NCBI RefSeq assembly: GCF_000613185.1
Contig: NZ_CCBB010000001.1
Span: 310,001 to 374,000 of the forward strand
DNA length: 64,000 bases
Source of the DNA: Mycolicibacterium cosmeticum
GTDB taxonomy: Bacteria > Actinomycetota > Actinomycetes > Mycobacteriales > Mycobacteriaceae
Direction: 5' to 3'
Under the pieces are notes generated by a model, which did not search any database, was not told the origin of the DNA, and was given only the letters and a program-made list of their open reading frames with translations. Both the position numbers and the translations under genes were made by a program. Below are positions 41,071 through 64,000 of this stretch, in pieces (the first letter of the stretch is position 1; every line of letters starts with the position of its first letter).

Positions 41071-42726
<1,656 letters not shown>

Positions 42727-45691: not shown

Positions 45692-45815
45692 GTCCGTTTC
45701 TTTCACATGGGCGTTCGGCGCTGACGGTGCAAGACCGGGGACCGGCGTTGAAAGTCGAGGAGTTGTTCGGCCCGGCCATACCGTGGCAGCGACACAGGCA
45801 GTGCGCTAACCTATC

Positions 45816-45842
45816 CAAATGGAGTTTTTTCAACTCCATTTG
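45816..45842. repeat. Perfect AT-rich inverted repeat upstream of alr
   Basis: CAAATGGAGTT (45816-45826) and its exact complement AACTCCATTTG (45832-45842) flank a TTTTC loop. The element is unusually AT-rich and lies 67 bp upstream of the alanine racemase ATG, in the gap shared with whiB. The inner half-site AAATGGAGTT recurs once more, at 57792-57801 upstream of the phosphotriesterase-like operon. A binding site for a regulator is more likely than a terminator at this position. Confidence 0.6.
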
Positions 45843-45908: not shown

Positions 45909-47078
45909 ATGGAATCCGTCCCTATCGGACAGGCGAACGCCGAAATGGTCATCGATCTGGATGCGATAGACCGCAACGTCCGCACTCTGTGCCGGGTGGC
46001 CGGTGATGCCGCGGTGATGGCCGTGGTCAAGGCGGATGGATACAACCACGGGGCCACGCGTATCGCCGCCACCGCCGTCGCCGCGGGTGCACGAGAGATC
46101 GGCGTCGCCACCTTGAGCGAAGCGCTGGAACTCCGGGACAGCGGGATCGAAGCACCAATCATGTTCTGGCTGAGCGGACCCGGCGATGACTTCGCTGCGG
46201 CCATCGCCCGAGATTGTGAGATCGCGGTGACCTCGGAGCGCCATCTCGATGCCGTCTGTGCGGCCGCCAGGTCGGCGGGAAGGCCAGCAACGATCTCGAT
46301 CAAGGTCGACACCGGCCTCAACCGAAATGGTTTCTGCCCCAGAGACTATCGTGCACTCCTGACCAGGATCCGCTGTGTGAAAGATGCCGGCCTCATTCGG
46401 GTTCGGGGCATCTTCTCCCATCTGGCCTGCGCCGATGATCCGAATTGTTCGATCACCGAAACCCAGCGGAGCCGCTTTCTGAACGCCCTCGAGACGGCTT
46501 CGGCCCATGGCATCACTCCTGAAGTCACCCATATCGCCAATTCCGCCGCGGCACTCACCCGGCCGGATCTCCACTTTCAGATGGTGCGCGCGGGCATCGC
46601 GCTTTATGGACTCAGCCCGGTGGCCACCGCCGCGCAGTTGGTTCCGGCGATGACGTTGCAGGCGCGCGTGGTGTTGGTCAAGGACATCGCGGCCGGCGAG
46701 GGGGTGTCCTACGGTCACATGTGGACGGCATTGCACGACACCACGATTGCGCTTCTCCCGATTGGCTATGCCGATGGGCTACCCAGGGCCCTGAGCGGGA
46801 AGTTCAGCGTCCTGATTGGCCACAAGCGGTACCCGAGCGTTGGTCGCATCTGCATGGATCAGGTCGTCGTCGACGTGGGTCAGCACAGCGGTGTGCGGGA
46901 AGGCGATGTCGCTGTGTTGTTCGGCAACGGTCGGCATGGCGAATCCCGTGCGCAGGATTGGGCCGAGACGCTCGACACCATTCACTATGAGATTGTTACC
47001 GGGCCGCGCGGCCGTGTACGCCGGCGGTTCATTGGTGGCGCGTCAACGACCACGGCGGGTCAGGCGCAGAACGCCTGA
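45909..47078 (+). CDS. alr: Alanine racemase (fold type III, PLP-dependent)
   Basis: A 389-residue alanine racemase. PLP Lys41 lies in VVKADGYNHG, and the second catalytic Tyr in GVSYGHMW; further blocks are VDTGLNRNGF, FSHLACAD and GRICMDQVVVDVG. It interconverts L- and D-alanine, although paralogues in catabolic islands may act on other amino acids. Mycobacteria carry a housekeeping alr elsewhere, so this is probably a second copy; that cannot be confirmed from the window. The ATG at 45909 has GGAAGG 11 nt upstream. It converges with the cupin gene through a hairpin at its stop codon. Confidence 0.9.
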   Translation: MESVPIGQANAEMVIDLDAIDRNVRTLCRVAGDAAVMAVVKADGYNHGATRIAATAVAAGAREIGVATLSEALELRDSGIEAPIMFWLSGPGDDFAAAIARDCEIAVTSERHLDAVCAAARSAGRPATISIKVDTGLNRNGFCPRDYRALLTRIRCVKDAGLIRVRGIFSHLACADDPNCSITETQRSRFLNALETASAHGITPEVTHIANSAAALTRPDLHFQMVRAGIALYGLSPVATAAQLVPAMTLQARVVLVKDIAAGEGVSYGHMWTALHDTTIALLPIGYADGLPRALSGKFSVLIGHKRYPSVGRICMDQVVVDVGQHSGVREGDVAVLFGNGRHGESRAQDWAETLDTIHYEIVTGPRGRVRRRFIGGASTTTAGQAQNA

Positions 47079-47084
47079 CCCGCC
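47054..47084. terminator. Bidirectional-type hairpin between alr and the P450 operon
   Basis: A perfect 13-bp stem (GGCGGGTCAGGCG and its complement) with a 5-nt loop spans the alr stop codon and the short gap to the convergent cupin stop. No T-run follows, as is common for mycobacterial terminators. Its position between two converging units suggests it stops transcription from both sides. Confidence 0.7.
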
Positions 47085-47099
47085 GCAGCATAGCTAGCC

Positions 47100-47456
47100 T
47101 CAAAAGACGGTGTATACCTTCAGGATCGTCTCGTGGATATCCCAGGTGCCCGTCCAGCCCTTGGCGAAGACCGCGCTGTCGCCGGCGTTGATGTCATAAG
47201 TCTGACCACCTTCTTCGCTGACTGTCATCCGACCCTCCAACACGGTGATGGACTCGTTGGTCTCGAACACCCAGCGAGAGGGGCCAGGCGCGCATTTCCA
47301 CAGTCCCACTTCGAGGACACCGTCACCGGTCCAGAGTTTCTTGCCGGCGGTGGCCATGGGTTCGGCGGTCGCCTCCGGCAGGGGGCCCCAATCCTCCAAT
47401 TCGATTGCGCGTGCATCTGAAATTACCGCAGTCGAGGTGGAAGTGCTTGTAGTCAT
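47100..47456 (-). CDS. DUF861 cupin protein
   Basis: A 118-residue single-cupin protein. The stretch LWKCAPGPSRWVFETNESIT followed by VLEGRMTVSEEGGQTYDINA and GDSAVFAKGWTGTWDIHET matches the Cupin_3/DUF861 family, many of which accompany amine or ureide catabolism genes. The Ser/Thr-rich start precedes the fold. Metal ligands are weak: the usual Glu is in NESI, and His is mostly lacking, so it may be a binding or isomerase protein. It is the last gene of the P450 operon, 82 bp after the P450 stop. AAAGGA precedes the ATG at 47456. Confidence 0.85.
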   Translation of the reverse strand: MTTSTSTSTAVISDARAIELEDWGPLPEATAEPMATAGKKLWTGDGVLEVGLWKCAPGPSRWVFETNESITVLEGRMTVSEEGGQTYDINAGDSAVFAKGWTGTWDIHETILKVYTVF

Positions 47457-47538
47457 GCGTATCCTTTCATTGTCTTACTCTGTTGCTATCCGGGGAGCTG
47501 GGGTTCTGCCAGGCGCCGCATCGAGCGCGTGCGGCCGA

Positions 47539-48756
47539 TTACGGGATGAGCCGAAGCGGCAGTGAGTGATAGTGGCGCGAGGCGTCGGTGTTCTTGATGA
47601 CGGGTGGCGCCGCGAGTTCGATGCGTGAGTACCGTGCGGCGATCCGCTCCCAGATCACGCGGACCTCAGCTTCGGCGAGCAGGCGCCCCTGGCAGGCGTG
47701 AGTCCCGAGGCTGAAGGTCAAGTTTCGCGTCTGCTCGGGTGGCCGGTTGTAGTCGAAGTCGTCGGGATTGTCGAAGACCTCCGGATCATGGTTCGCCGCT
47801 CCCAGCATGAGCCGCAGCGTGCTCCCGGCCGGTACCGTAACGCCGCGGATGACCAGGGGCTCAGTCGTGGTGCGCGTGACGACAGGTTCGGGAGCGTCGA
47901 AACGCACCAGTTCGGTGACGATGGCTTCTCGCACCTCGGGCCGGTGCCGGAACACCTCGAAGATGTCGGGCCGTCGGGTAAACATGTGCAGTCCCGAGCA
48001 GATCAGGTAGCTGGCATCCATATGACCGACGAAGTAGAAGAACAAGGTGGTTGCATGCACTTCGGCCGCAGTCATCTCACCGCTATCCTCGAGTGCGAGT
48101 AGGTGGTCGAGAAGGCCCGTGCCAGGCTGGTCGCGCTTCATCTCGATGAGTTCGGCCGCTCGGCTCCGCAGATAGACGTGCGCTTCCTCGCATGCTTGGA
48201 AGTCCTCGGGAGTGGGGACGGCACTGAGAACGGGCATGGCTTTGCGCATTTGTGTGCGAACTTCGTCGATCTGATCGTCAGGCACCTCCAGCAGCCGGCA
48301 TACGGTGCGGTGGGTGGCTTCCACTGCGATGTCGAAACCGTCGATGAGCCCGTCGTCGCCGACGCGGTCGAGGATTTCGTCGGTGACGGCCGCGGTGATG
48401 GTAATCCAGTGTTTGACCTGTTTGGGCGTCAGCCACTTGCTGGTCAGCCGGCGCAGTCGGGTGTGCTCGGGCTCGTCCTTGCCCAGCGCCATGTGTTCGA
48501 GGATTTTCCAGCCGCCGGCCTTCTCCCACTCAGGCCCGATGACAACCGACGGCAGTCGGCCGTAGTGCATCAGGTCCTCATAGCGGGTCAGCACGAAGGT
48601 GCCGTCATCGTCGATGGTGATCGGTGCCTCGGCGAGGGCGCGCGCATAGAACGGATACGGATCCTCGCGAAGCTTGGCATCCTTCCAGGGAAGGTAGTCG
48701 CGGGTTGCCGGGCAACCGGGATCCGTTGACACTGCGATTGTGTGGCTGGTGGTCAT
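47539..48756 (-). CDS. Cytochrome P450, soluble bacterial class
   Basis: A 405-residue P450. The heme-binding loop FSLGTHACQGR carries Cys355; the ExxR pair is Glu282-Arg285 in ELVRF. The I-helix, however, reads VGHMDAS at residues 243-249 where most P450s have AGHETT, so the conserved acid-alcohol pair used for proton delivery is missing. The partners encoded in the same operon are a flavodoxin and an adrenodoxin-reductase-like flavoprotein, as in the P450cin and XplA systems, not a ferredoxin. The substrate is unknown; a nitrogen compound is suggested by the permease and the flanking genes. Family numbering cannot be assigned by eye. Confidence 0.93.
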   Translation of the reverse strand: MTTSHTIAVSTDPGCPATRDYLPWKDAKLREDPYPFYARALAEAPITIDDDGTFVLTRYEDLMHYGRLPSVVIGPEWEKAGGWKILEHMALGKDEPEHTRLRRLTSKWLTPKQVKHWITITAAVTDEILDRVGDDGLIDGFDIAVEATHRTVCRLLEVPDDQIDEVRTQMRKAMPVLSAVPTPEDFQACEEAHVYLRSRAAELIEMKRDQPGTGLLDHLLALEDSGEMTAAEVHATTLFFYFVGHMDASYLICSGLHMFTRRPDIFEVFRHRPEVREAIVTELVRFDAPEPVVTRTTTEPLVIRGVTVPAGSTLRLMLGAANHDPEVFDNPDDFDYNRPPEQTRNLTFSLGTHACQGRLLAEAEVRVIWERIAARYSRIELAAPPVIKNTDASRHYHSLPLRLIP

Positions 48757-48795
48757 GGACGTTTTCCTTTCTGATCTCGGGTGGGCGCCGGTTCG

Positions 48796-50304
48796 TCACA
48801 TACGAGTCGGCGTGACGGCATCGGCTGATTCGGGCTGACCGGTGTCCGCCCGGCCAAGGCGGGCGAAGATATGCGGTCTTGCGGACCGGAAGTACAACGC
48901 CACACCGGCTCCGATCACCAATGAGGCGGCGAGCACGATGAGCAGCCCGAGATTCTGGCCGGGTTCACCGCCGACGACGAGGTCGAAGTGCAGCACGCTG
49001 AGGATCACAGTGGCGCCCAGAGTGAGGATGGCCAGCGCGGGGGCGATGTAGCACTTGAAGATGTTGGCGTCGGCGGGAATTCCCCTGCGGCTGAACCACA
49101 CGATCACGGCGAAGCTGACGAGCGCCATCAGGGTGAGGATGCCGACGGTGCCGAGGCCGAACAACTGTGCATCGAGCCCTTCACCTTCGGGGTTTGCGAT
49201 ACTCAAGGGGATGAGAAGCGCGGCCACGACAATCGCGACGGCGACCGAGGCACGGGCCGGCGAGTGATGTCGCGGGTGGACTTTGGCGAAGAACGACGGC
49301 AGCGCTTTGTCATGCCCGAGGTTGTAGAAGTAGCGTGATGCCACGTTGTGCACGGAGATGGCCGCAGCCAACTCGGACGTGATGATCATCATGAAAGTCA
49401 GTTGTGTGAAGAACCCCGCCGCGAGATGGCCGATAGCGCTGGGGAACATCATCTTCGGATCGTCGGTGGCGGCCTGCACTGCGTTTGATCCGTATGCGGT
49501 GGTAAGCAGGTAGCAGGACACGGTGTAGAGGACACCGACGAACGCGACGGCGCCGTAGGTGGCACGCGGAATGGTTGTGCCCGGGTCGCGTACTTCATCG
49601 CGGAATACAGCGGTGGCCTCGAAGCCGAGGAATATCATGATGGCGAACAGCAGCCCGACGCCGATGTCGCCCTGCGACAAGGAGGCGGGGTTGAACGGCG
49701 CGGCAGTGAACCCATCCGGGCCGCCACCGTGCAGAAGAACAGCGACATTGAAGATCACGACGATGGCGACCTCCAAAACCATGGCGACACTGAGGATTTT
49801 CGCCGAGACCTCGATGTGGAAGTAACAGAGGACACTGACTAGTGCCCAGGCGATGATCGTCCACAACCACCACGGTGTCTCCGGTCCGCCCATGCTGGTG
49901 ATCAGCTCGGTCAGGGTCATGCCGATGAAGGGAAAGCAACCACCGAGCATGAGCAGATAGGAGACGACCGCAAGGAAGGCAGAGCCCAGGCCGGTCACCT
50001 TGCCCAGGCCGGCGCTGATGAATGCATAGAAGGAGCCTGGTCTGGGAAGGTGTTTTGTCATGGTGACATAGCCGACGGCGAACAGCAGGAGGCTGACCGT
50101 CGCAACAGCGAAGATCAAACTTGCTCCCGGACCACCGAATTGGATGCAGAACGGGATGAACCCGGCGACGGCAGCAATCGGTGCCGAGAACGCCAGGACC
50201 GTAAGCATGAGGGAGCTGACTCCCATGCGGCCGGACAGTTCGGTGTCGGATCCGGGTTGTAGGGTTGTGGCTCGCGGGTTGGCCTCGGCGGCGTCTGATG
50301 ACAT
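48796..50304 (-). CDS. APC-family amino acid/amine permease (P450 operon)
   Basis: A 502-residue amino acid-polyamine-organocation permease with about twelve membrane helices and long soluble ends. Typical blocks are MLTVLAFSAPIAAVAGFIPF in helix 1, the FLGFEATAVFRDEVRDPGTT signature after helix 6, and SVHNVASRYFYNLGHDKALP. This type imports amino acids, amines or small organic cations by proton symport. Being between flavodoxin and P450 genes, it probably imports the P450 substrate. It is only distantly similar to the permease at 54017. Confidence 0.92.
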   Translation of the reverse strand: MSSDAAEANPRATTLQPGSDTELSGRMGVSSLMLTVLAFSAPIAAVAGFIPFCIQFGGPGASLIFAVATVSLLLFAVGYVTMTKHLPRPGSFYAFISAGLGKVTGLGSAFLAVVSYLLMLGGCFPFIGMTLTELITSMGGPETPWWLWTIIAWALVSVLCYFHIEVSAKILSVAMVLEVAIVVIFNVAVLLHGGGPDGFTAAPFNPASLSQGDIGVGLLFAIMIFLGFEATAVFRDEVRDPGTTIPRATYGAVAFVGVLYTVSCYLLTTAYGSNAVQAATDDPKMMFPSAIGHLAAGFFTQLTFMMIITSELAAAISVHNVASRYFYNLGHDKALPSFFAKVHPRHHSPARASVAVAIVVAALLIPLSIANPEGEGLDAQLFGLGTVGILTLMALVSFAVIVWFSRRGIPADANIFKCYIAPALAILTLGATVILSVLHFDLVVGGEPGQNLGLLIVLAASLVIGAGVALYFRSARPHIFARLGRADTGQPESADAVTPTRM

Positions 50305-50323
50305 GTGGGGTCCTTGGGTTGGT

Positions 50324-50355
<32 letters not shown>

Positions 50356-50357
50356 TT

Positions 50358-50810
50358 CTAGATGGTTGCAGCGGTGAAGAGGTCGTCGACCCAGGAAACA
50401 GCGACCTCGGAAGCATCGAGTCCGCTGTCGGCATCGTGGTGCCCGGTCTCCCCCATCTGGGTGGCACCGAGATCGGTGAATGCGGCGGCCAACCGCGCGA
50501 TGCCGCGGTTGTAGGTCTCGTAGGTGCTGTCGCCCAATCCGAACGCGGCGAACCGTGTCGATGAGAGGTCGGGGCGGACCTCGTTGAGCGCATCGAAGAA
50601 GGGCAACGCCGTTTGAGGCAGCTCGCCTTCGCCGTAGGTCGAGGATACGACGATGACCAGCTTCTGCGCGCCGAGATCGGCGACATCGTAGTGCTCCATG
50701 TCGAAGACCTCGCTCTTGATGCCGTTGCGCTCCAGGGCGGTACAGATGTCTTCGGCGACCATTTCGGAGTTGCCCGATTCCGTACCGTAGAGGATCGTCA
50801 CTGTGTCCAC
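50358..50810 (-). CDS. Flavodoxin, single FMN-binding domain
   Basis: A 150-residue flavodoxin. The FMN phosphate loop is LYGTESGNSEM near the N-terminus, followed by VIVVSSTYGEGELPQTALPF and FGLGDSTYETYN, which stack on the isoalloxazine. It passes electrons from the reductase encoded just upstream to the P450, as cindoxin does for P450cin. The GTG at 50810 starts VDTVTILYGTES and has AAAGG nine bases upstream. It belongs to the same minus-strand operon as reductase, permease, P450 and cupin. Confidence 0.93.
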   Translation of the reverse strand: MDTVTILYGTESGNSEMVAEDICTALERNGIKSEVFDMEHYDVADLGAQKLVIVVSSTYGEGELPQTALPFFDALNEVRPDLSSTRFAAFGLGDSTYETYNRGIARLAAAFTDLGATQMGETGHHDADSGLDASEVAVSWVDDLFTAATI

Positions 50811-50850
50811 GTGCCAGCCTTTCTGCTGAATGTCTGTGAATTGACTTGAT

Positions 50851-52230
50851 TTACGTTGCGCTGGTGAGCTTCTCGCCGGAAGTCGCGATCGCGAGCATGG
50901 TGTCGACGTCGACGATCTTGCGACGGCAGCGGTCCGGGTGCGCCGACTGCCGCTCGTGCAGCTCGATGCGCTGCCAGCCGGCGAAGGTGACGACCTGGCT
51001 GCCCAGCTGCGGCCCGATGGCCTCAAACCCTGCTCTGCCCAAGGCTAGTCGGCCGGAAGACACGTCGCTGACGATCGCGTCGACAACCTGCTGCGCATCC
51101 TTGCGGTTCTCCGGAATCGTCCCTTTCGGGCCGCGACGCAGCCATCCCACGCGGTAGACTTGCGGACCGGTCCAGGCCGGCGACGGGCACGACCGATCGT
51201 CGGTACCCCCGCAGGTGAATCCGACGGCGGTGATGACGGAGTCGACGGCAAAGTCCATCCGCTCGCCGTGGCCGCGTCGGGCCCTGAGCAGAGTGTGGCC
51301 GTCACCGCGCTCGATCGCCTCAGGAGTCACGCCGAAGTGCAGGCTTACCCTGGTGCGCCGCAGCGTCGATCCAGTACTCACCGCGCCGGCCACATCGACC
51401 CGTGATGCGTGCGGGCGCAACAGGTCTGCGATCGGCCCCTGGTCGCTGTCCGTCAGGCCGGTGACCTCGATCTCGACGTTGTCCAGCGAGACCACTTCCC
51501 GCAGCATCGCCGCGTCGCATTTGGCCTCGGCTGCCACTGACCGGCCGATGACGTCGATTGTCATCGGTGCCGTCGGGCGCAGCTGTCCCAGTATGTCGTC
51601 GTCGATATCGGATCCGATGAACCCGTCGGCGCCCTTGGACAGCAGGCGCACCACATCGACGGCGACATTGCCCATGCCGACGACCGCAATGCTCTGCCCC
51701 AGCGGCGTGTGAGCGCCCGTCTCGTCGCACGGCAGGCGTCGGGCGGGGAAACCGTTGAGCGTCCGCAGAAGTGCTCCAGCGCCGATCACGCGGCTGCCCG
51801 GTTCTTGCGGGATGTCCAACGACCGGTCTTCGGGCAGGCCGGTGGCCAGCACGACGATGTCGAAGCCGGCAGCCAACTCGTCGAAGCCGATATCCCGGCC
51901 CACCGACACGTTGCCGACGAACCGCACGCCGCCCGTCGTGAACATCCGGTCGAACTGCCGTATCACGCCTTTCGCGCCTTGGTGGTCGGCCGCGACCCCG
52001 TAGCGGATGAGGCCGTAGGGCGCCGGCAGCGCTTCGAAGATCGTGATGTCGGCCCCCGGCCATCTCTTGGCCAGAAATTGTCCCGCGTAGCAGCCGGACG
52101 GACCGCTGCCGACGATGGCGATCGTCGGCAGCGAGCCGCCCGTCACGCCATCGGAGACTGGCGCGCCGGGAGTCTTGCCAACGGATTCACCTGCATTTTT
52201 GGGTGCCGCGACGAGGGTGGCGTCGTACAT
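50851..52230 (-). CDS. Adrenodoxin-reductase-type NAD(P)H:flavodoxin/ferredoxin reductase (FprA-like)
   Basis: A 459-residue two-dinucleotide-binding flavoprotein. The FAD motif is IAIVGSGPSGCYAGQFLAKR, followed by FEALPAPYGLIRYGVAADHQ, and the NADPH motif is VVGMGNVAVDVVRLL; the order and length match mycobacterial FprA and adrenodoxin reductase. An N-terminal 33-residue extension precedes the FAD fold. It would feed electrons to the flavodoxin and P450 of the operon. GAGGTG precedes the ATG at 52230. It is the first gene of the operon, divergent from the TetR gene. Confidence 0.93.
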   Translation of the reverse strand: MYDATLVAAPKNAGESVGKTPGAPVSDGVTGGSLPTIAIVGSGPSGCYAGQFLAKRWPGADITIFEALPAPYGLIRYGVAADHQGAKGVIRQFDRMFTTGGVRFVGNVSVGRDIGFDELAAGFDIVVLATGLPEDRSLDIPQEPGSRVIGAGALLRTLNGFPARRLPCDETGAHTPLGQSIAVVGMGNVAVDVVRLLSKGADGFIGSDIDDDILGQLRPTAPMTIDVIGRSVAAEAKCDAAMLREVVSLDNVEIEVTGLTDSDQGPIADLLRPHASRVDVAGAVSTGSTLRRTRVSLHFGVTPEAIERGDGHTLLRARRGHGERMDFAVDSVITAVGFTCGGTDDRSCPSPAWTGPQVYRVGWLRRGPKGTIPENRKDAQQVVDAIVSDVSSGRLALGRAGFEAIGPQLGSQVVTFAGWQRIELHERQSAHPDRCRRKIVDVDTMLAIATSGEKLTSAT

Positions 52231-52286
52231 TGGTTCACCTCGAAAGAGTGGCCGAATGAGGCATCGACTCTGAACTTAGACTAGAG

Positions 52287-52304
52287 ACGCGACTGGAGTC
52301 GCGT
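52287..52304. promoter_or_regulatory. 18-bp palindrome between reductase and TetR genes
   Basis: ACGCGACT (52287-52294) and AGTCGCGT (52297-52304) are exact complements separated by GG, in the 262-bp gap between the divergent reductase and TetR genes. A related GCGACTCCGC lies at about 52324-52333, and an AT-rich TATAGT (-10 like) at 52314-52319. This is the best operator candidate for the adjacent TetR protein. Confidence 0.6.
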
Positions 52305-52492
52305 ATTTGAAAATATAGTTGCGGCGACTCCGCATGTCCATAGGCGAAAGCGCCATTTACGAGGCGGTTACGTCCAGGAAACCGAGCCGGCCGCTTCCGA
52401 GCCGACCCAAAACCCGACTGGGATCGCGACACGGTTACACTCACGTTGCCTGCACCTGCTGGAACGGTGGGCGTCGAACCAAGGGGGTATTG

Positions 52493-53152: not shown

Positions 53153-53168
53153 CACGCAGACCACATCC

Positions 53169-54002: not shown

Positions 54003-54016
54003 GACCAACTGGCTCC

Positions 54017-56759: not shown

Positions 56760-56763
56760 GGAG

Positions 56764-57780
56764 TCAAGGCCGATCGAGCAGTCGGCGTGGGTTTTCGACC
56801 ATCATCTGCGTGACCACGTCGTCGCCGACCCCGTGTTGGTCACGCAGCAACGGCAGGATTCGGCGATGCAGATGCTCGTAGCCGAAACCGCCGTAGCTCT
56901 TGAGGTTCGCCTTGGTCCAGACGTCACAGGCCAGCACTAGCTGTCCGGCGTGGCCGTCGTGCAACAGCGGCAGCAGGTGGTCGATCCGCTCGAGGTCGGT
57001 GGGGTCCTTGAACAGCCCGCTGAAATAAAAATCCGAACCGAACGTGTCGAACGCCATCGCCACACCGGACTGAGCGACATCGGCGTGGTAGGCCTTGTCG
57101 AGGTGCTCGTCGAGGTGGCCCATGATCACCCGGTCGGGTGACATTCCCTGCGCAACCAGAATATCCAGCACGTTCAGTGCTTCCGCACCGCGTGGCTCAA
57201 GGTGGATGCTCACCGAGGCCTGGGTCACCACCGCGGCCGTACCCGCCGCCGCGATCACCTTCTTCTCCCGTTCGGTGACCGGTGAACTGGTGCCGATTTC
57301 CCCGATGAGCGCCGGCTTGATTGCGGTCCCGTCGATCCCTTCTTGCAGCTCCGCCACCAATAGCTCGGCGAGCCGGTCGACGCTCCATTGCTCGACGTAG
57401 TCGGGGTGGGAATCGTGGATGTAGAAACCGCACCCGCTCATCACATGCACACCACTGCGTTTGGATATCACGGCCAGGTCTTCGATCCGACGGCCGAGGC
57501 CGATGTTGGTGAGGTCCACCAGCCCGGCGTTCGGCACGCCGGAGAAGTATTCGAGTTCGCGCACAGCCACGTCGACGTCGTCTATCAACAAGTTGTCTTC
57601 GAGGCTGACCAGGTTCCAGTGCACGAAACCCAGGTTCTCGAGGGAGACGGCGGCCGGTTCGGGGACGGGTTCACGCGCGGGTTCGAACCAGACGCGTCCG
57701 TCGATCAGCAAGTGTTCGTGCATGCTGGTCTGACCCAGCTCTGCAGGGTCGATGGGACCAAGGACGGTATGAATCGGCAT
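56764..57780 (-). CDS. Phosphotriesterase-family metal-dependent hydrolase
   Basis: A 338-residue amidohydrolase-superfamily protein of the phosphotriesterase branch. The metal motif HEH is at residues 21-23 (TSMHEHLLIDG), the bridging residue seems to be the Glu of IGEIGTSS instead of a carboxylated Lys, and further ligands are in SIHLEP, IMGHLDEH and LACDVW. Such enzymes hydrolyse lactones, amides or phosphoesters; mammalian PTER is an N-acetyltaurine amidase. The enzyme is the first gene of an operon with the GS-like ligase, permease and GntR regulator, suggesting it frees an amine or acid from its precursor; this is inferred. AAGGA precedes the ATG. Confidence 0.85.
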   Translation of the reverse strand: MPIHTVLGPIDPAELGQTSMHEHLLIDGRVWFEPAREPVPEPAAVSLENLGFVHWNLVSLEDNLLIDDVDVAVRELEYFSGVPNAGLVDLTNIGLGRRIEDLAVISKRSGVHVMSGCGFYIHDSHPDYVEQWSVDRLAELLVAELQEGIDGTAIKPALIGEIGTSSPVTEREKKVIAAAGTAAVVTQASVSIHLEPRGAEALNVLDILVAQGMSPDRVIMGHLDEHLDKAYHADVAQSGVAMAFDTFGSDFYFSGLFKDPTDLERIDHLLPLLHDGHAGQLVLACDVWTKANLKSYGGFGYEHLHRRILPLLRDQHGVGDDVVTQMMVENPRRLLDRP

Positions 57781-57791
57781 CGGACATCCTT

Positions 57792-57801
57792 AAATGGAGT
57801 T
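57792..57801. promoter_or_regulatory. AAATGGAGTT box upstream of the phosphotriesterase-like operon
   Basis: This 10-mer is identical to the half-site of the inverted repeat upstream of alr (45816-45842). It lies 12-21 bp before the ATG of the phosphotriesterase-like gene, in the 255-bp gap shared with the divergent pdxS operon. No second arm is present here. It could mark shared regulation, for example by the GntR protein. Confidence 0.4.
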
Positions 57802-58035
57802 CGGTGAATGCCTTTTTATCAGACGCCAGAAGCCTTGGCAACACCCACATGCCGAATGGGCCGGCCAGGCTCCGCCATTGCATGCGGTCGGCCGCGAGGC
57901 CGCTAGCCGATGCGCGAAAGTCGTTTGTAACCGGTGTATTACGGGACAGCGCCGGAGCGTTTTCCCGGGCCGCACCGAACCTCACACCCGCTCACGCCTT
58001 GACGAAACCCGATGCATCACGGTAGACAATGGATC

Positions 58036-58953
58036 GTGTCGCAATCCAATCAACCATCGGTCACGCCCTCGCCCGGCGTTGGCACCGCCCGGGTGAAGCG
58101 CGGCATGGCCGAGATGCTCAAGGGCGGCGTCATCATGGATGTGGTCACCCCGGAGCAGGCCCGGATCGCCGAGGCCGCCGGTGCGGTGGCGGTGATGGCC
58201 CTGGAGCGGGTGCCCGCCGATATCCGCGCCCAGGGCGGGGTGTCGCGGATGAGCGATCCGGACATGATCGAGGGCATCATCGACGCGGTCACCATCCCGG
58301 TGATGGCCAAGGCCCGGATCGGGCATTTCGTCGAGGCGCAGATCCTGCAGAGCCTCGGTGTGGACTACATCGACGAGTCCGAGGTGCTGACTCCGGCCGA
58401 CTATGCCAACCACATCGACAAGTGGCGCTTCACCGTGCCGTTCGTCTGTGGCGCCACCAACTTGGGTGAGGCGCTGCGCCGGATCACCGAGGGCGCGGCG
58501 ATGATCCGGTCCAAGGGGGAGGCCGGTACCGGGGACGTCTCCAATGCCACCACTCATATGCGGACCATCGGCGCCGAGATCCGCCGGCTGACCTCGTTGA
58601 GCGAGGACGAGTTGTTCGTGGCGGCCAAGGACCTACAGGCCCCGTATGACCTGGTGGTCGAGGTGGCCCGGGCCGGCAAGCTGCCGGTCACGATGTTCAC
58701 CGCCGGTGGCATCGCGACGCCGGCGGACGCGGCGATGATGATGCAGCTGGGCGCCGAGGGCGTGTTCGTGGGCTCGGGCATCTTCAAGTCCGGTGACCCG
58801 GCCGCCCGCGCGGCGGCGATCGTGAAGGCCACCACCTTCTACGACGATCCCGATGTGCTGGCCAAGGTCTCCCGCGGCCTCGGTGAGGCGATGGTCGGCA
58901 TCAACGTCGACGACATCCCGGTCCCGCACAGGCTAGCCCAACGCGGCTGGTGA
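58036..58953 (+). CDS. pdxS: Pyridoxal 5'-phosphate synthase lyase subunit PdxS
   Basis: A 305-residue PdxS (Pdx1) protein, a TIM-barrel that forms PLP from ribose 5-phosphate, glyceraldehyde 3-phosphate and ammonia. The active-site lysines appear in [10 protein letters not shown] (K81-type) and [11 protein letters not shown] (K149-type), and blocks such as [20 protein letters not shown] and [12 protein letters not shown] are typical; the protein looks complete. Normally pdxT (glutaminase) is adjacent, but no pdxT is seen here. It heads a plus-strand operon with an aminotransferase. GTG at 58036 is preferred; an ATG eight codons upstream is possible. It is probably a second copy. Confidence 0.92.
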
Positions 58954-58984
58954 GAAGACAAACCATAAAGAAAGGGAACAGATC

Positions 58985-60358
58985 ATGACCTCTCTGCCGA
59001 ACCGGCACGCGTTGGAAGCGCAGGCGCTGGACCACCTGTGGTTGCACAGCAACGACCTGGAATGGAACGAACTCATCGAGGGTGGGTTGCGGGTCTTCGT
59101 GGAAGGCCGCGGCTCGACGTTGATCGACGTGAACGGCAAGGAATACATCGACGGCCTGGCCGGACTGTTCGTGGTCGCGGCAGGCCACGGCCGCGCCGAG
59201 ATCGGCGAGGCCATGGCCGAACAGGCCGGCAAGATCGCCTACACCGCCGCGTCCAACGCCGCCAACCCCGCGGCGATCAAGCTGGCCGCCAAGATCGCCT
59301 CCCTCACCCCGGGCGACCTCGACCGGATCTTCCTGTGCTCGGGCGGATCCGAGGCGGTGGAGAGCGCAATGAAGATTGCCAAGCAGGTCCAGGTCATGCG
59401 TGGATTTGGCAAGCGCTACAAGATCATTGCTCGCCGGGGCTCTTACCACGGCACCACGTTCGGCGCCGCCAGCCTCACCGGCAGCGCGAGCGAGAAGTAC
59501 TTCGGACCGTTCATGGCCGGCGTGAGCAAGGTGCCGAACCCCAACCACTATCGCAACGATTTCGGGCTTGAGGGTGAAGCCGGTGACATCATGTGCGCCC
59601 GCTACGTCGAGCAGGAGATCCTCAACCAGGGCCCGGAACACGTCGCGGCGGTGATCGGCGAACCGATCTCGGTCGCCAACGGCACTCATCTGCCCAGCCC
59701 GGTGTACTGGCAGATGCTGCGCGATATTTGCGACAAGTACGGCGTTCTTCTGATCATGGACGAGGTCATCACCGGCTGGGGACGGACTGGCAAGGTGTTC
59801 GCCGCCGAGCACTACGGGGTGGTTCCCGACATCATGACCATGGCCAAAGGTCTTTCGAGTGGCTACGCACCGGTGGCGGCCGTGGCCGTTCGGTCGTCGA
59901 TCTTCGATGATTTCCGCCCCGATGGCCGCGCACTGGGCCACCTGATCACCTTCGGCGGCCACGCGGTGGCAGCTGCCGCTGCGTTGAAGAACATCGAGAT
60001 CCTCGAACGCGAGAATTTGGTCGAACGCTCGGCCGAGATGGGCACCTACCTCTTCGAGTTGGCCCAAGAATTGCGCAGCCATCCCACCGTCGGTGATGTC
60101 CGCGGCGGTAAAGGCCTCTTGTGCGCCATCGATTTCGTCAAGAGCAAGGAAACCCGTGAGGCGTGGGGAACATCGCATCCGTTCATCAAGCAGCTCGCCC
60201 TGCGCACGCAGGAAGAGGGCCTGGTCACCCGGGTGTGGGACGTTTTGCACCTCGCGCCGCCGTTCGTGCTGACCCACAGCGAGGCCGAGCGCGCCATCGA
60301 GATCGTCGACCGCTGCCTCACCGAGGCAGAGGCGAAGTTCGCGGCCGAGATCGGCTGA
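58985..60358 (+). CDS. Class III PLP-dependent omega-aminotransferase
   Basis: A 457-residue class III aminotransferase (GABA/putrescine/omega-amino acid type). The PLP Lys288 is in MTMAKGLSSGY; other blocks are FLCSGGSEAVESAMKIAKQ, the ring-stacking SYHGTTFGAAS and the ILIMDEVITGWGRTGK-like LLIMDEVITGWGRTG, plus ITFGGHAVAAAAALKNIE. It transfers an amino group from an omega-amino compound to a keto acid, in the cytoplasm. It follows pdxS by 31 bp and precedes the gamma-glutamyl hydrolase gene by 6 bp, so it most likely acts at the beginning or end of the same pathway. Confidence 0.93.
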   Translation: MTSLPNRHALEAQALDHLWLHSNDLEWNELIEGGLRVFVEGRGSTLIDVNGKEYIDGLAGLFVVAAGHGRAEIGEAMAEQAGKIAYTAASNAANPAAIKLAAKIASLTPGDLDRIFLCSGGSEAVESAMKIAKQVQVMRGFGKRYKIIARRGSYHGTTFGAASLTGSASEKYFGPFMAGVSKVPNPNHYRNDFGLEGEAGDIMCARYVEQEILNQGPEHVAAVIGEPISVANGTHLPSPVYWQMLRDICDKYGVLLIMDEVITGWGRTGKVFAAEHYGVVPDIMTMAKGLSSGYAPVAAVAVRSSIFDDFRPDGRALGHLITFGGHAVAAAAALKNIEILERENLVERSAEMGTYLFELAQELRSHPTVGDVRGGKGLLCAIDFVKSKETREAWGTSHPFIKQLALRTQEEGLVTRVWDVLHLAPPFVLTHSEAERAIEIVDRCLTEAEAKFAAEIG

Positions 60359-60364
60359 TCCGAC

Positions 60365-61099
60365 ATGACCGCACCCGTGATCGGCGTCTGCGCCGCGTTC
60401 GAGAAGGCCAGCTGGGGCTTCTGGAATCAGCAGGCCGCCATCGTGCCGGCCACTTATCTCGCGAAAATTCATGCCGCAGGCGGAGTCCCGGTGGGATTGA
60501 TACCCGACACGCGTGTGGTCGAGAGTGCGGGACTGCTCATCGACCGCATCGACGGATTGCTGTTGATCGGCGGCGTCGATGTCGAGCCTGCATCGTACGG
60601 CGCCACCGACAACGGCCGTACTGAAGCCACCGAACCGCTACGCGACGAGTTCGAGTTGGTTCTGGCGCGGGAAGCAATGCGACGAGACATTCCGGTACTC
60701 GGAGTATGCCGTGGCATGCAGGTTCTCAACGTGGCGGCCGGGGGGACGCTGCACCAGCATTTGCTCGACGCAGGCTACGTTGAACACCGCCCCAGCCCCG
60801 GCCGGCTCGACCACGAAACCTTCCACGAAGTCGAGGTGGACTACGGCACCCATGCGGCGATGTTGTGCGGCAGCGGTGTCCAGATCGTCAACTCCCACCA
60901 CCATCAAGGTGTGGACCGGCTCGGCAACGGCGCGGTGGTCACCGCCCGATCACTACCCGACCAGCTGCCCGAAGCCATCGAGTGGCCCGGTCAACGTTAC
61001 GCGCTCGGCGTGCAATGGCATCCGGAAGCCGCCGAACTTCAGCACGCTCTCACCGATTTCGTCAACAGCGCCGCACACGCACTCGGAGGACAACACTGA
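60365..61099 (+). CDS. Gamma-glutamyl-gamma-aminobutyrate hydrolase-like (PuuD family, peptidase C26)
   Basis: A 244-residue class I glutamine-amidotransferase-fold hydrolase. The nucleophile Cys115 is in LGVCRGMQVLNV, and GVQWHPEAAE supplies the catalytic His and Glu. The fold and length match PuuD, which removes the gamma-glutamyl group from gamma-glutamyl-GABA. Together with the GS-like ligase in the opposing operon it completes a glutamylation-deglutamylation cycle. It is 6 bp after the aminotransferase stop and 1 bp before the aldehyde dehydrogenase ATG. Confidence 0.92.
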   Translation: MTAPVIGVCAAFEKASWGFWNQQAAIVPATYLAKIHAAGGVPVGLIPDTRVVESAGLLIDRIDGLLLIGGVDVEPASYGATDNGRTEATEPLRDEFELVLAREAMRRDIPVLGVCRGMQVLNVAAGGTLHQHLLDAGYVEHRPSPGRLDHETFHEVEVDYGTHAAMLCGSGVQIVNSHHHQGVDRLGNGAVVTARSLPDQLPEAIEWPGQRYALGVQWHPEAAELQHALTDFVNSAAHALGGQH

Positions 61100-61100
61100 C

Positions 61101-62462
61101 ATGGCCGTCATCGACGTCATCGAACCCTCGACCGAACAGGTCATCGAATCGCTCGAACAGATCACCCCCGCGGGATTGGATGACGTGGTCGCCCGCGCCA
61201 CCACCGCACAGCGGCAATGGGCCGCCCAGCCACCCCAGTTCCGTGCCGAGGTCTTGCTGTCCATCGCAGCAGCGGTCGACGACAACCGCGAAGCCCTCGC
61301 CCAGCTGGAAGCGCGCAACGTCGGCATGCCCATCAGCGATGCGCGCGGTGCAATCGCCGGCGTGGCGGCGACCTTCCGCTACTACGCAGCCGCACCGGAA
61401 CGCCTTCTCGGCCACACCATCCCGGTGGCCGGGGGCGTGGACATGACATTCCGCGAACCCATCGGGGTAGTCGGACTGATCACCCCGTGGAACTATCCGC
61501 TGACCATCGCCGCCTGGAAGGTGGCGCCGGCGTTGGCGGCCGGCAACGCGGTGGTGCTCAAACCCGCTGAGCTCACGCCCTTGACCTCGCTGCGGCTGGG
61601 ACAGCTCGCCGTCGGTGCCGGGCTGCCCGCCGACCTGTTCAACGTCGTCGTCGGCCCCGGACGGACGATCGGCAGCCGGCTGGTCGAACATCCCGGCGTC
61701 GGGAAGATAGCGTTCACCGGATCGACGAGCGTCGGCCAGGACATCGCGCGACGCGCGGCCGACGGGATCAAACGCGTCACGCTGGAACTGGGCGGCAAGT
61801 CGGCGGCCCTCGTCTTCGCCGACGCCGACCTGGACGCGGCGGCCGAGGGCCTCACGGGTGCCGTGTTCGGGAACTCGGGCCAGGATTGCTGCGCCAGGTC
61901 GCGGGTGTTCGTCGAACGCTCTGTCCTCGACATGTTCTTGGAGAAACTGGAGAAGGTCGTCGCCAATATCGTCGTAGGTGACCCACTTTCGGAGAACACC
62001 CAGATGGGTCCACTGATCTCGGCAGCACACGCGGCGACCGTCCAGAGCTACGTCGACGACGCACCGGTGCTCTTCCGTGGATCGGCGCCGACCGGCCCCG
62101 GCTTCTGGTTTGCCCCCACCGTGCTGCACCCCATCGCCGACAATCATCGTTCGGCGCGTGAGGAAATCTTCGGACCGGTCGTGTCGGTCCTCGCCTTCGA
62201 CAGCGAGGATGAAGCGGTTGCCCGGGCCAACGACACCATCTACGGTCTGGCCGGCTCAATCTGGACATCGAATGCGGCACGTTCGATGCGGGTGGCCCGT
62301 GGCGTCGCGGCGGGTGCGTTGGCGGTGAACTCGTACACCTCGGTGCGGATCACGACACCGTTCGGCGGTTTCAAGCAGTCCGGACTCGGGCGCGAACTCG
62401 GCCCCGACGCGCTGGAGGCCTACACGGAAGTCAAGAACGTCTTCTTCAACACCGCCTCGTAG
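61101..62462 (+). CDS. Aldehyde dehydrogenase (PuuC/betaine-aldehyde type)
   Basis: A 453-residue aldehyde dehydrogenase, slightly short at the N-terminus relative to most. Catalytic Cys263 is in NSGQDCCARSRV (two adjacent Cys), the Glu in TLELGGKSAALV, the TPWNYPLTIAAWKVAP loop binds NAD, and the C-terminal FGGFKQSGLGRELG is typical of amino-aldehyde dehydrogenases. In the glutamylated pathway it would oxidise a gamma-glutamyl-amino aldehyde. The ATG is adjacent to the previous stop, in a tightly packed operon. Confidence 0.93.
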   Translation: MAVIDVIEPSTEQVIESLEQITPAGLDDVVARATTAQRQWAAQPPQFRAEVLLSIAAAVDDNREALAQLEARNVGMPISDARGAIAGVAATFRYYAAAPERLLGHTIPVAGGVDMTFREPIGVVGLITPWNYPLTIAAWKVAPALAAGNAVVLKPAELTPLTSLRLGQLAVGAGLPADLFNVVVGPGRTIGSRLVEHPGVGKIAFTGSTSVGQDIARRAADGIKRVTLELGGKSAALVFADADLDAAAEGLTGAVFGNSGQDCCARSRVFVERSVLDMFLEKLEKVVANIVVGDPLSENTQMGPLISAAHAATVQSYVDDAPVLFRGSAPTGPGFWFAPTVLHPIADNHRSAREEIFGPVVSVLAFDSEDEAVARANDTIYGLAGSIWTSNAARSMRVARGVAAGALAVNSYTSVRITTPFGGFKQSGLGRELGPDALEAYTEVKNVFFNTAS

Positions 62463-62483
62463 ACCCTTTTTCCGATGACCTGA

Positions 62484-62762
62484 GTGGCCGACCAGCTCGT
62501 GACGAATCAATTCGATTGGGAAATGCTGCGTTTCGTCGTCTCTTGGGCGCCCTACGGAGGACCACATGACGAGGAGACCGTGCCGAGGTTCGGGATGAAC
62601 TCCGAACGCCTCAAGGCTAGGTTCGCAGAAATCGTTCGAGCGCTCGTTTCAAGCGACGCACCGCTCGATTTCGATCAGCGGCAGCTGCTGCGACGGGCGC
62701 GCGCGTTGGCGGCACCGGCGACCCGCCAAGGCCATCCCCGACAAGACAGGAGAACCGTATGA
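62484..62762 (+). CDS. Small DUF3263-like protein in the amine operon
   Basis: A 92-residue protein between the aldehyde and mycothiol dehydrogenase genes. It contains [20 protein letters not shown] and [17 protein letters not shown], a pattern reminiscent of the DUF3263 or RHH-like HTH proteins of actinobacteria, and a basic tail ([10 protein letters not shown]). The stop overlaps the ATG of the next gene, supporting translation. Assignment is uncertain; it may be a small regulator or partner of the dehydrogenase. GTG start at 62484. Confidence 0.55.
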
Positions 62763-63847
62763 CAAGTCAGACAGTGCGCGGTGTGATTTCCCGGTCGAAG
62801 AAGCAGCCCGTCGAGTTGGTCGACATCGTGATCCCCGATCCCGGTCCGGGTGAGGTGGTGGTCGACATCATCGCGTGCGGGGTATGCCACACCGACCTGA
62901 CCTACCGCGAGGGCGGCATCAACGACGAGTACCCGTTCCTGCTCGGGCATGAGGCCGCCGGCACCGTCGAGTCCATCGGCGACGGTGTCACCCATGTCGC
63001 CCCCGGCGATTTCGTGATCCTGAACTGGCGCGCGGTGTGCGGCGAATGCCGGGCCTGCAAACGCGGCCGCCCGAACCTGTGTTTCGACACCTTCAACGCC
63101 ACCCAGAAAATGACCCTGACCGACGGCACCGAACTGACCCCCGCCCTCGGGATCGGGGCGTTCGCCGACAAAACCCTCGTGCATCAGGGCCAGTGCACCA
63201 AGGTCGATCCCGAAGCCGACCCGGCCGTGGCCGGTCTGCTCGGCTGCGGGGTGATGGCCGGCATCGGCGCGGCCATCAACACCGGCAACGTGGGCCGCAA
63301 CGACACCGTCGCGGTCATCGGCTGCGGCGGGGTGGGTGATGCCGCCATCGCCGGGGCGGCCCTGGTCGGGGCCAAGACGATCATCGCCGTGGACACCGAC
63401 AACCGGAAACTGGACTGGGCCCGCGGGTTCGGGGCCACCCACACCATCAACGCCAAAGAACTCGACCCCGTGGAGACCATCCAGGATCTGACCGACGGGT
63501 TCGGCGCCGACGTGGTCATCGACGCCGTCGGGCGCCCCGAAACCTGGAAGCAGGCCTTCTACGCCCGCGACCTGGCCGGCACCGTCGTGCTCGTCGGCGT
63601 CCCGACCCCGGACATGACCCTAGAAATGCCGTTGGTGGACTTCTTCTCCCGCGGCGGAGCACTCAAGTCGTCCTGGTACGGCGACTGCCTACCCGAACGC
63701 GACTTCCCCACCCTCATCAGTCTCTATCGCCAGGGCCGGCTGCCCCTGGAGAAATTCGTCTCCGAACGCATCGGCCTCGACCAGATCGAAGACGCCTTCC
63801 ACAAAATGCACGCCGGCGAGGTCCTGCGCTCCGTGGTCATCCTCTGA
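62759..63847 (+). CDS. mscR: S-(hydroxymethyl)mycothiol dehydrogenase (formaldehyde oxidation)
   Basis: A 362-residue zinc-dependent medium-chain dehydrogenase. Catalytic-zinc residues lie in [12 protein letters not shown] and [15 protein letters not shown], the structural-zinc lobe in [15 protein letters not shown], and the NAD motif in [15 protein letters not shown]. The sequence closely fits the mycothiol-dependent formaldehyde dehydrogenase (MscR/AdhE2, Rv2259 in M. tuberculosis), which oxidises the adduct of formaldehyde and mycothiol. It is followed immediately by an MBL-fold gene, the same order as Rv2259-Rv2260. Its place in the operon suggests that the pathway releases formaldehyde. 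Confidence 0.93.
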
Positions 63848-64000
63848 TGGGTGCCATCACCCGGGTCGTCACCAGCGGCACCTTCTCCCTCGACGGCGGC
63901 ACCTGGGACGTCGACAACAACATCTGGCTCGTCGGCGACGACTCAGATGTCATCGTCTTCGACGCCGCCCACACCGCCGCCCCCATCATCGAGGCCGTCG
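63847..64000 (+). CDS. MBL-fold hydrolase (Rv2260-type), truncated by window end
   Basis: The first 51 codons of a metallo-beta-lactamase-fold protein, reading TRVVTSGTFSLDGGTWDVDN and WLVGDDSDVIVFDAAH before the window ends. Such genes directly follow mscR in mycobacteria and may hydrolyse S-formylmycothiol or a similar adduct; this is inferred from gene order. The ATG overlaps the mscR stop (TGATG). The metal motif is outside the window. Confidence 0.8.
   Translation, partial: MGAITRVVTSGTFSLDGGTWDVDNNIWLVGDDSDVIVFDAAHTAAPIIEAV

Follow-up and report, generated by a model that had tools for sequence, protein, structure and literature searches.

A conserved gene island of Mycolicibacterium cosmeticum joining an XplA-family P450 to a GoaS-like ligase, and its probable role in a two-tier breakdown of small amines

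An island of about 18 kb, located at positions 45909..64000 of the 64-kb stretch of M. cosmeticum DNA analyzed here (the window), probably encodes a two-tier variant of the gamma-glutamyl-amine (GoaS/Ipu) pathways, by which a small amine, either N-alkyl or cyclic, would be broken down. Its best reading is that of a flavodoxin-type branch added to these pathways, which handle compounds such as the isopropylamine released from atrazine (PMC6776027, excerpt). No publication describing the island was found in the open-access literature. All of the genes named in a previous reading of the DNA letters (the sequence-only reading) were recovered by Pfam and NCBIfam matches, namely a P450, a flavodoxin, a reductase, two APC permeases, a cupin, PTE-like, GS-like and PuuD-like proteins, an aminotransferase, an aldehyde dehydrogenase and a PLP synthase, the last represented by the PdxS subunit and not by PdxT. 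The formaldehyde-detoxification gene of that reading was identified as an S-(hydroxymethyl)mycothiol dehydrogenase. Three further genes were identified: an alanine racemase, whose first position is also the left boundary given in the sequence-only reading, a TetR regulator and a GntR/FCD regulator. The features are as follows:

45818..45840, no strand: FCD-type operator box AATGGA-N11-TCCATT, 0 mismatches, 69 bp before the start of the alanine racemase gene
45909..47078, plus: alanine racemase (Alr), TIGR00492 above cut-off
47100..47456, minus: EutQ-type cupin, Pfam Cupin_3
47539..48756, minus: XplA-family cytochrome P450, M246/D247 replacing the I-helix acid-Thr pair, heme Cys355
48796..50304, minus: APC permease 1 (APC1), Pfam AA_permease_2
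50358..50810, minus: flavodoxin (Fld), a gene on its own, Pfam Flavodoxin_1
50851..52230, minus: XplB-like FAD/NAD(P) reductase (FdR), Pfam Pyr_redox_2
52287..52304, no strand: TetR-type operator box ACGCGACTnnAGTCGCGT, 0 mismatches
52490..53152, plus: TetR-family regulator, divergent from FdR, Pfam TetR_C
53169..54002, minus: GntR/FCD regulator, Pfam GntR and FCD
54017..55426, minus: APC permease 2 (APC2), NCBIfam permease matches below cut-offs
55419..56759, minus: GS-like putative gamma-glutamyl-amine ligase of GoaS/IpuC type, Pfam Gln-synt_C
56764..57780, minus: phosphotriesterase-related amidohydrolase (PTE), Pfam PTE, best solved matches 3k2g and 9efa
57793..57815, no strand: FCD-type operator box, on the PTE side
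58028..58050, no strand: FCD-type operator box, on the PdxS side
58093..58953, plus: PdxS, PLP synthase subunit, Pfam SOR_SNZ, alternative ORF start at 58012
58985..60358, plus: class III aminotransferase (AMT3), Pfam Aminotran_3
60365..61099, plus: PuuD-like putative gamma-glutamyl hydrolase, Pfam Peptidase_C26, top NCBIfam model gamma-Glu-GABA hydrolase, below cut-off
61101..62462, plus: aldehyde dehydrogenase (ALDH), Pfam Aldedh
62759..63847, plus: S-(hydroxymethyl)mycothiol dehydrogenase (MscR), TIGR03451 above cut-off
63847..64000, on to about 64470 beyond the window, plus: MBL-fold hydrolase gene, start only, recognized by eye

The proposed layout of two minus-strand operons and one divergent plus-strand operon was borne out by the gene coordinates and gaps. 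With gene starts called by codon usage, on which the gap lengths rest, the intergenic gaps were 39–82 bp in FdR-Fld-APC1-P450-cupin, 4–28 bp in PTE-GS-APC2-FCD and 1–31 bp in PdxS-AMT3-PuuD-ALDH, followed by 296 bp to MscR. The unit extends about 470 bp beyond the window edge, into the MBL-fold gene. The G+C content of the island was 64–66%, against 69–72% in the first 40 kb of the window; it was 66% at 40–44 kb and 68–70% in the right flank (6 kb beyond the window), with another dip at 70–72 kb.

The three operons were found to be conserved as a set, so that the island survived one of the refuting conditions set in the sequence-only reading. The cupin, P450, permease, flavodoxin and reductase genes remain grouped in all 11 orthologous loci, which come from four genera, the cupin (67–80% identity) lying beside the P450 and APC1 showing 71–90% identity. 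The TetR regulator (61–92%; at another place of the stretch from Rhodococcus triatomae), the GntR/FCD regulator and the GS-like ligase were likewise present in all 11 stretches. A close orthologue of APC2 was found in 5 of the 11 loci, every one from Mycolicibacterium/Mycobacterium, PTE was 83–90% identical in five loci and 32–36% in another four, and AMT3 was 87–97% identical among the loci long enough to include it. Within the genus, a close P450 and the GS-like ligase were each carried by the identical 8 of 396 genomes, and 14 of 31 P450 relatives matched a ligase relative in the length of their longest contig, taken as a proxy for location on one contig. Gene order was rearranged in three Amycolatopsis loci, yet the set was kept together. 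Additionally, a second, diverged grouping of an XplA-family P450 with GS, PuuD-like, ALDH, APC and one-carbon genes was observed in Streptomyces canus and two other genomes.

The perfect co-occurrence in 8 of 396 genomes, together with the survival of the set through the Amycolatopsis rearrangement, argues against two unrelated neighboring pathways, one for polyamines (Puu-like) and one a P450 system for a compound such as a terpenoid, and so does the amino-acid-type permease within the P450 operon. Such a pair of pathways would agree with the different operator boxes of the operons and with P450cin, another flavodoxin P450, which oxidizes cineole. It would also agree with the P450 relatives of 46–48% identity in three other mycobacteria, which have SDR- and acyl-CoA-type neighbors but neither a flavodoxin nor a ligase gene beside them. 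Together with a similar reductase-flavodoxin pair in different surroundings on a Rhodococcus pyridinivorans plasmid, these relatives indicated that the parts are not linked to amines everywhere. Nevertheless, we regard two unrelated pathways as improbable.

Two conserved operator-like boxes divide the island into the P450 unit and a ligase/aminotransferase regulon that includes the alanine racemase. All 11 loci have the TetR-type box in front of FdR (0–3 mismatches); in the host genome this was its sole place at ≤1 mismatch, and the reversed control pattern likewise gave one place. The PTE-PdxS intergenic region carries two FCD-type boxes in all 11 loci, with ≤1 mismatch each. The degenerate FCD pattern matched exactly at four places in the 6.46-Mb genome, three of them within the island, and its reversed control at none; at ≤2 mismatches the window had 11 matches against 17.7 expected, and hence no enrichment. 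The TetR and FCD regulators presumably pair with the boxes of their respective types.

The racemase and PdxS share the box type of the ligase operon, a point that would suit resistance to, and breakdown of, a cycloserine-like amine antimetabolite hitting PLP enzymes, in which the extra racemase and PLP synthase would protect and the P450 would destroy the compound. This seems very improbable, given that the racemase was present at 1 of 12 loci (the one described here), that PdxS was present in 7 of the 11 other stretches, and that no pointer to a cycloserine-like compound was seen. The racemase was absent from the 11 other stretches as far as these reach, that of locus L013 stopping 560 bp past the cupin. 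The host genome has three alr-like loci, the other two being 53% (with one internal stop) and 50% identical to the island Alr.

When aligned with six other GS-family proteins of the host genome, including GlnA, the GS-like ligase was found to keep neither the Asp50 loop nor Glu327 of GlnA, which we take to be the ammonium-site residues of that enzyme. By this residue comparison it resembles the GoaS enzymes, GS-I type proteins that lack the ammonium site, and the best reading is that it would join glutamate to an organic amine. With this loss, and with the same gene core in the Ipu clusters, amine catabolism via gamma-glutamylation, as the sequence-only reading had proposed, stands as the best reading. 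The claim that no described pathway has this set did not hold, and an undescribed gene set was rejected, since the core is shared by two isopropylamine (Ipu) gene clusters, one on pTC2 of Paenarthrobacter aurescens TC1 and one on pYJNG of Microbacterium YJN-G. These contain a P450 with redox partners, an IpuC-type ligase (36–38% identity to that of the island), a PuuD-like hydrolase (37–38%), an ALDH (49–55%) and an APC permease (31–38%), as well as a class III aminotransferase on pTC2 (37%). Hence, the Ipu combination of GS-like ligase, monooxygenase, gamma-glutamyl hydrolase, ALDH and permease also occurs in the island, whereas an Ipu-type ferredoxin P450 does not: the Ipu P450s are only 24–30% identical to the island P450, keep Asp-Thr in helix I and adjoin ferredoxin genes, while the partner in the island is a flavodoxin. 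The Ipu clusters also have SDR and GAF-domain genes, and neither cupin, PTE, PdxS nor MscR was among their annotated features seen. The Puu putrescine pathway of E. coli shares the GS-like ligase, PuuD-like hydrolase, ALDH, aminotransferase and permease, but none of the island genes identified was a PuuB-type oxidase, and the gamma-glutamylputrescine synthetase, PuuC and gamma-Glu-GABA hydrolase models matched below NCBIfam cut-offs. The ferredoxin-driven Pip/Mor secondary-amine P450s of Mycobacterium, which occur with a GS-like gene and serve cyclic-amine breakdown, are a further parallel; a search of the open-access literature for morpholine/piperidine gene clusters found nothing.

Both by sequence (44% identity) and by fold, the island P450 came nearest to XplA, whose family we take to be CYP177. 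The flavodoxin was 57% identical to the flavodoxin domain of XplA, with Cindoxin (4oxx) as its best solved match, and the reductase was 39–40% identical to XplB of Gordonia KTR9 (pGKT2) and of Rhodococcus DN22. These results support the proposed kinship with the XplA/XplB and cindoxin systems. The flavodoxin is encoded by a separate gene, unlike the fused domain of XplA proper, and gene order differs; on pGKT2 a single reading frame encodes both the reductase and a GS-like domain. P450cin shares the flavodoxin type of partner, but it did not appear among the top 60 of the 336 solved structures matched by the island P450, and no cineole genes were recognized in the island.

Like XplA, the island P450 has no acid-alcohol pair in helix I, where M246/D247 stand instead. 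This loss has been described as unusual for XplA (PMC8081977, excerpt), but the pair was missing throughout the sampled family and not in XplA alone: Asp or Glu occupied the acid position in 0 of 174 clusters, a sample picked for resemblance to either XplA or the window P450 (listings of 44 and of the best 120 of 147 matches, plus the loci), with P0032 (317 aa) and one outgroup left out of the count by a 330-aa cut-off. Among the 29 other P450 matches of the host genome, all seven that were aligned have Glu-Thr or Glu-Ser. In the Thr place, the change from Asp or Asn to Ala395 was found only in XplA among the 174 clusters; the island P450 has Asp247 there. Direct descent of XplA from the window P450 was rejected, because XplA is closer to other, unfused P450s, namely P0046 (65%) and Streptomyces P0048 (61%), among the best 120 of 147 matches; the tree, which included two misread rows (L076 and L078), also placed the window clade apart. 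The structure 8q5j is of a P450 from S. scabiei (PMC11355015, excerpt), and no functional report on it was found in the open-access literature search.

In the pathway that we propose, the upper tier, behind the TetR box, would begin with entry of the amine through APC1. Electrons from NAD(P)H would travel by way of the XplB-like reductase and then the cindoxin-like flavodoxin and so reach the P450, which may hydroxylate the carbon adjoining the nitrogen and so bring about ring opening or N-alkyl removal; any formaldehyde formed would be handled by MscR and the MBL hydrolase. In the lower tier, behind the FCD box, the ligase would couple the resulting amine to L-glutamate at the expense of ATP, AMT3 and ALDH would oxidize the tail, and the PuuD-like hydrolase would release the product and glutamate. 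The scheme gives neither PTE nor the cupin a step, which counts against it. The acceptor of AMT3 is probably pyruvate, the alanine being recycled via the boxed racemase here and via alanine dehydrogenase in strain NS-7484, where the latter gene (59% identical to the pTC2 enzyme) adjoins the cupin.

We lean slightly toward the P450 acting before the ligase; the opposite order is a possible but weaker candidate. Permeases resembling APC1 (36–47%) accompany XplA-family P450s in a Klebsiella plasmid, Rhodococcus R138 and Sinorhizobium without a ligase in the stretches examined, which suggests that the P450 takes the free compound as its substrate. The fuller alternative, rather unlikely in our view, follows isopropylamine: the amine would be glutamylated on entry, the P450 would oxidize the gamma-glutamyl amide, and alanine would be the end product. 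Glutamylation is placed before the oxygenase both in the Ipu pathway (PMC6776027, excerpt) and in aniline/naphthylamine oxidation (PMC11335346, excerpt). A route ending in alanine would explain the racemase, which sits behind an FCD-type box, and the alanine dehydrogenase, which lies near both Ipu clusters as well as beside the NS-7484 cupin. Against it speak the separate operons and different boxes of P450 and ligase, the P450-operon relatives that lack a ligase, and the absence of any recognized SDR from the island, unlike in Ipu.

RDX is a man-made compound, and nothing links the island itself to it. Since the best-known cousin of the island P450 degrades this explosive, the island may reveal the role of the family in nature, and it provides a conserved, testable setting for the natural chemistry of XplA-family P450s. 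As a tentative proposal, XplA could have branched off recently from an ancient and widespread P450 family that lacks the acid-alcohol pair, takes its electrons from a flavodoxin and normally oxidizes small amines; islands of the present kind would be one of its natural homes. The change from Asp/Asn to Ala395 would then be a candidate step toward RDX reduction, the Asp/Asn of the family activating oxygen or holding a cationic amine. XplA is under development for RDX phytoremediation (PMC8081977, excerpt), and a field trial with it appears in the references of PMC10820124 (excerpt).

Finally, MscR is weak as proof of formaldehyde, because extra copies are common: at least two were found in 8 of the 13 genomes searched, and in four of these none was seen beside the cluster. 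The island MscR is 98% identical to a second copy in the host genome. It was not beside ALDH in the mycobacterial loci L057 and L061 or in the three Amycolatopsis stretches; the Pseudonocardia and Rhodococcus triatomae stretches end within ALDH, short of any MscR position. Tropane-type substrates were considered from the gene surroundings in Sinorhizobium, and the open-access literature search yielded nothing relevant to that link. Near XplA-family P450s, a thiol-dependent formaldehyde dehydrogenase was observed in several mycobacteria and its glutathione form in Sinorhizobium.

The gene identities of the island were assigned by Pfam and NCBIfam in a genome of 6.46 Mb (5 contigs), and the genes are arranged in the window (G000:C1:310001-374000) as follows:

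First unit, minus strand, in order of transcription: XplB-like reductase (FdR), flavodoxin, permease APC1, XplA-family cytochrome P450 and cupin, with gaps of 39–82 bp
TetR regulator gene, divergent from FdR
Second unit, minus strand: phosphotriesterase-related protein (PTE), GS-like gamma-glutamyl-amine ligase, permease APC2 and GntR/FCD regulator, with gaps of 4–28 bp
Plus-strand unit: PLP synthase subunit PdxS, class III aminotransferase (AMT3), PuuD-like gamma-glutamyl hydrolase and aldehyde dehydrogenase (ALDH), with gaps of 1–31 bp; then, after 296 bp, S-(hydroxymethyl)mycothiol dehydrogenase (MscR) and an MBL-fold gene
Alanine racemase gene, at the left edge of the island

The G+C content of the island (approximately 45.8 to 64.5 kb) was 64–66%, compared with 69–72% for the leftmost 40 kb of the window, 68–70% immediately to the right and intermediate values at 40–44 kb; no tRNA was found in the 64-kb window. 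The coordinates given in the sequence-only reading start at the alanine racemase, a gene that its description omitted. A further alanine racemase-like gene (53%), possibly a pseudogene, is located at G000:C3:828646-829773 and contains one in-frame stop. To the left of the island, where the G+C content falls (41071-45706), a sulfatase-like ORF and a WhiB-like ORF were recognized by eye, together with a DUF4262 protein; no integrase was noticed.

The island is real and conserved, with signs of joint regulation. A contig scan with the window P450 yielded 20 loci, 11 of which (L009–L019) held close orthologues (65–77% identity) and the remaining nine relatives of 25–29%. The 11 orthologous loci belonged to Mycolicibacterium/Mycobacterium, Rhodococcus triatomae, Amycolatopsis and Pseudonocardia, and, when the P450 is counted by itself, a Gordonia protein (P0030, 65%) brings the number of genera to five. 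The order FdR-flavodoxin-APC1-P450-cupin was retained in all 11, and the TetR, FCD and GS-like genes were also inside every compared stretch. AMT3, PuuD-like and ALDH genes were present, whole or partial, in L011, L012, L016, L017 and L019, and were found after extending the stretches in M. wolinskyi, M. brisbanense, G128, G087 and the related strain NS-7484; the stretches of L010, L013 and L014 stop short of these genes. PdxS was detected in 7 of the 11 loci, close APC2 and close PTE (83–90%) in five, and a distant PTE (32–36%) in four more. The three Amycolatopsis loci are rearranged, their ligase and aminotransferase units being placed on the opposite side of the P450 unit.

The co-occurrence of the P450 and the GS-like ligase, previously proposed as a check, was borne out within the genus. 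The P450 was found (E<=1e-80) in 13 of 396 same-genus genomes, eight at 66% identity or more (window included) and five at 36–48%, and the GS-like protein (E<=1e-100) was found in exactly the same eight genomes as the close P450. Apparently, five of these eight are assemblies already among the loci of the contig scan. Because these linked genes sit in related species, the shared distribution reflects inheritance as a single unit and not eight independent events. At the class level the close P450 was present in 2 of 394 genomes, both of the same genus, with relatives of 37–38% in three others. When 31 close P450 relatives from a large protein collection were compared with 40 close GS relatives, 14 of the former matched one of the latter in the length of their longest contig, taken as a proxy for the same contig. 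Among the matches listed, the identity of the GS-like relatives falls from 66% to 50% with none in between, and the ligase therefore forms a distinct subfamily.

The comparison of intergenic regions detected two operator-like elements. Box 1, ACGCGACTnnAGTCGCGT, has an exact copy in the TetR–FdR intergenic region of the window and is found upstream of FdR in 11/11 loci with 0–3 mismatches; the matches with 3 mismatches (Rhodococcus triatomae and M. porcinum) are weak, 0.59 of that quality being expected by chance per window. At one mismatch or fewer it occurred in a single place in the genome, and, because the reversed control also had one place, the case for box 1 rests on its conserved position. 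Box 2, AWWGGM-N11-TCCWWT, was present in two copies (<=1 mismatch) in the region separating the ligase operon from the divergent aminotransferase operon in 11/11 loci, and the window has a third, exact copy 69 bp upstream of the racemase gene. The exact pattern occurred in four places genome-wide, three of them inside the island, versus none for the reversed control; random sequence of island composition gave 0.05 matches per 64 kb on one strand. Seven related genomes carried the island pair plus 1–5 other places each (control, 0–2 matches per strand). At two mismatches or fewer, box 2 was not enriched in the window (11 found, 17.7 expected). From their positions, box 1 is a putative TetR site and box 2 a putative FCD site. 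This layout is suggestive of two regulatory tiers, upper and lower, with the racemase belonging to the lower one in the window genome.

The GS-like protein retains the ATP/glutamate motifs. In the alignment with GlnA of the same genome, it lacked the 'FDGSS' loop, which holds Asp50 of GlnA, and showed 'PGFFAP' instead of 'PGYEAP' (Glu327); in glutamine synthetases both residues belong to the ammonium site. Its plasmid match carrying a functional gene name was ipuC of Paenarthrobacter aurescens TC1 (36.7%). On pTC2 the order, with a few other genes interspersed, is alanine dehydrogenase, ferredoxin reductase, ferredoxin, P450, glutamine amidotransferase, SDR, ipuC, a protein containing a flavodoxin-like segment, ALDH, permease and class III aminotransferase; the region of Microbacterium YJN-G is similar, the aminotransferase being absent from the stretch shown. 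The identities between the isopropylamine (Ipu) proteins and those of the island were 49–55% for ALDH, 31–38% for APC1, 37–38% for PuuD, 36–38% for GS, 37% for the aminotransferase and 24–30% for the P450. Because of this shared gene set and these identities, the island encodes the same kind of pathway as Ipu with another P450 and electron donor. Thus, the earlier statement that no described pathway has this set does not hold, and the island is a variant of the gamma-glutamyl-amine pathway, not a separate kind. Its interest lies in its XplA-family P450, for which it offers a testable natural setting; XplA's best-known oddity is common to the whole sampled family.

Two orders of the first steps are candidates. 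The ligase may act before the P450, the order given for both precedents, the Ipu (PMC6776027) and aniline (PMC11335346) pathways; for TC1, proteomics was interpreted as permease, IpuC, P450 system, a postulated amidotransferase and alaninol oxidation towards alanine (PMC6776027). The P450 may instead act first, the somewhat favoured order: it has its own operon, box and permease, and APC1-like permeases (36–47%) accompany XplA-family P450s in a Klebsiella plasmid, Rhodococcus R138 and Sinorhizobium, where the compared stretch contains no ligase. In NS-7484 the cupin has as its neighbour an alanine dehydrogenase 59% identical to that of pTC2. This gene, its counterpart near the Ipu clusters and the boxed racemase in the window point to alanine, which would be either a product or the form in which AMT3 collects the amino group.

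MscR is the neighbour of ALDH in the window, in G245 and in G128, and in NS-7484 a fragment of it is present where the contig ends; it was not found beside ALDH in M. brisbanense or G087, nor in the three Amycolatopsis stretches. The distance between MscR and the 46% P450 relative is about 1.9 kb in G295 and 5 kb in G244, with no MscR seen near the relative in G109, and in Sinorhizobium the glutathione form of formaldehyde dehydrogenase lies between the reductase/flavodoxin pair and the P450s. The island MscR is an extra copy, 98% identical to another in the same genome, but at least two copies were present in 8 of 13 related genomes. In S. canus and two further genomes, an XplA-family P450 is accompanied by one-carbon (folD, purU type), GS, PuuD-like, ALDH and APC genes, ferredoxin replacing flavodoxin. 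Taken together, a small N-alkyl or cyclic amine is the favoured class of substrate.

Other settings of the family were also recorded. L031 (S. canus plasmid), L096 and L097 carry an XplA-family P450, ferredoxin, GS, PuuD-like protein, two ALDH, folD, purU, aminomethyltransferase and homoprotocatechuate-type ring-cleavage genes (annotated as such in L031 and recognized by likeness in the other two), possibly an N-methylated phenethylamine pathway. The 46–48% P450 relatives of L062, L063 and L065 lie in a common mycobacterial block with SDR, acyl-CoA and alcohol dehydrogenase-type genes (by eye), with cupin and MscR near in two of the three and flavodoxin in none. Plasmid pM63-1 of Klebsiella pneumoniae (L032, 8189-14962), typed as conjugative IncFIB/IncFII, encodes reductase, flavodoxin, XplA-family P450 (38%), TetR and an APC1-like permease (43%); a P450 match was counted in five Klebsiella records and one Enterobacter record. 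Sinorhizobium chiapasense pB (L030, L089), also typed as conjugative, carries two XplA-family P450s, reductase, flavodoxin, APC permeases, Rid hydrolase, a 3-keto-5-aminohexanoate cleavage protein and glutathione-dependent formaldehyde dehydrogenase. Finally, in pGKT2 of Gordonia KTR9 (L029, ~9000-11443), a GS-like domain and XplB form a single 814-aa open reading frame adjoining xplA, and a second, unrelated P450 in which Asp-Thr is kept lies upstream.
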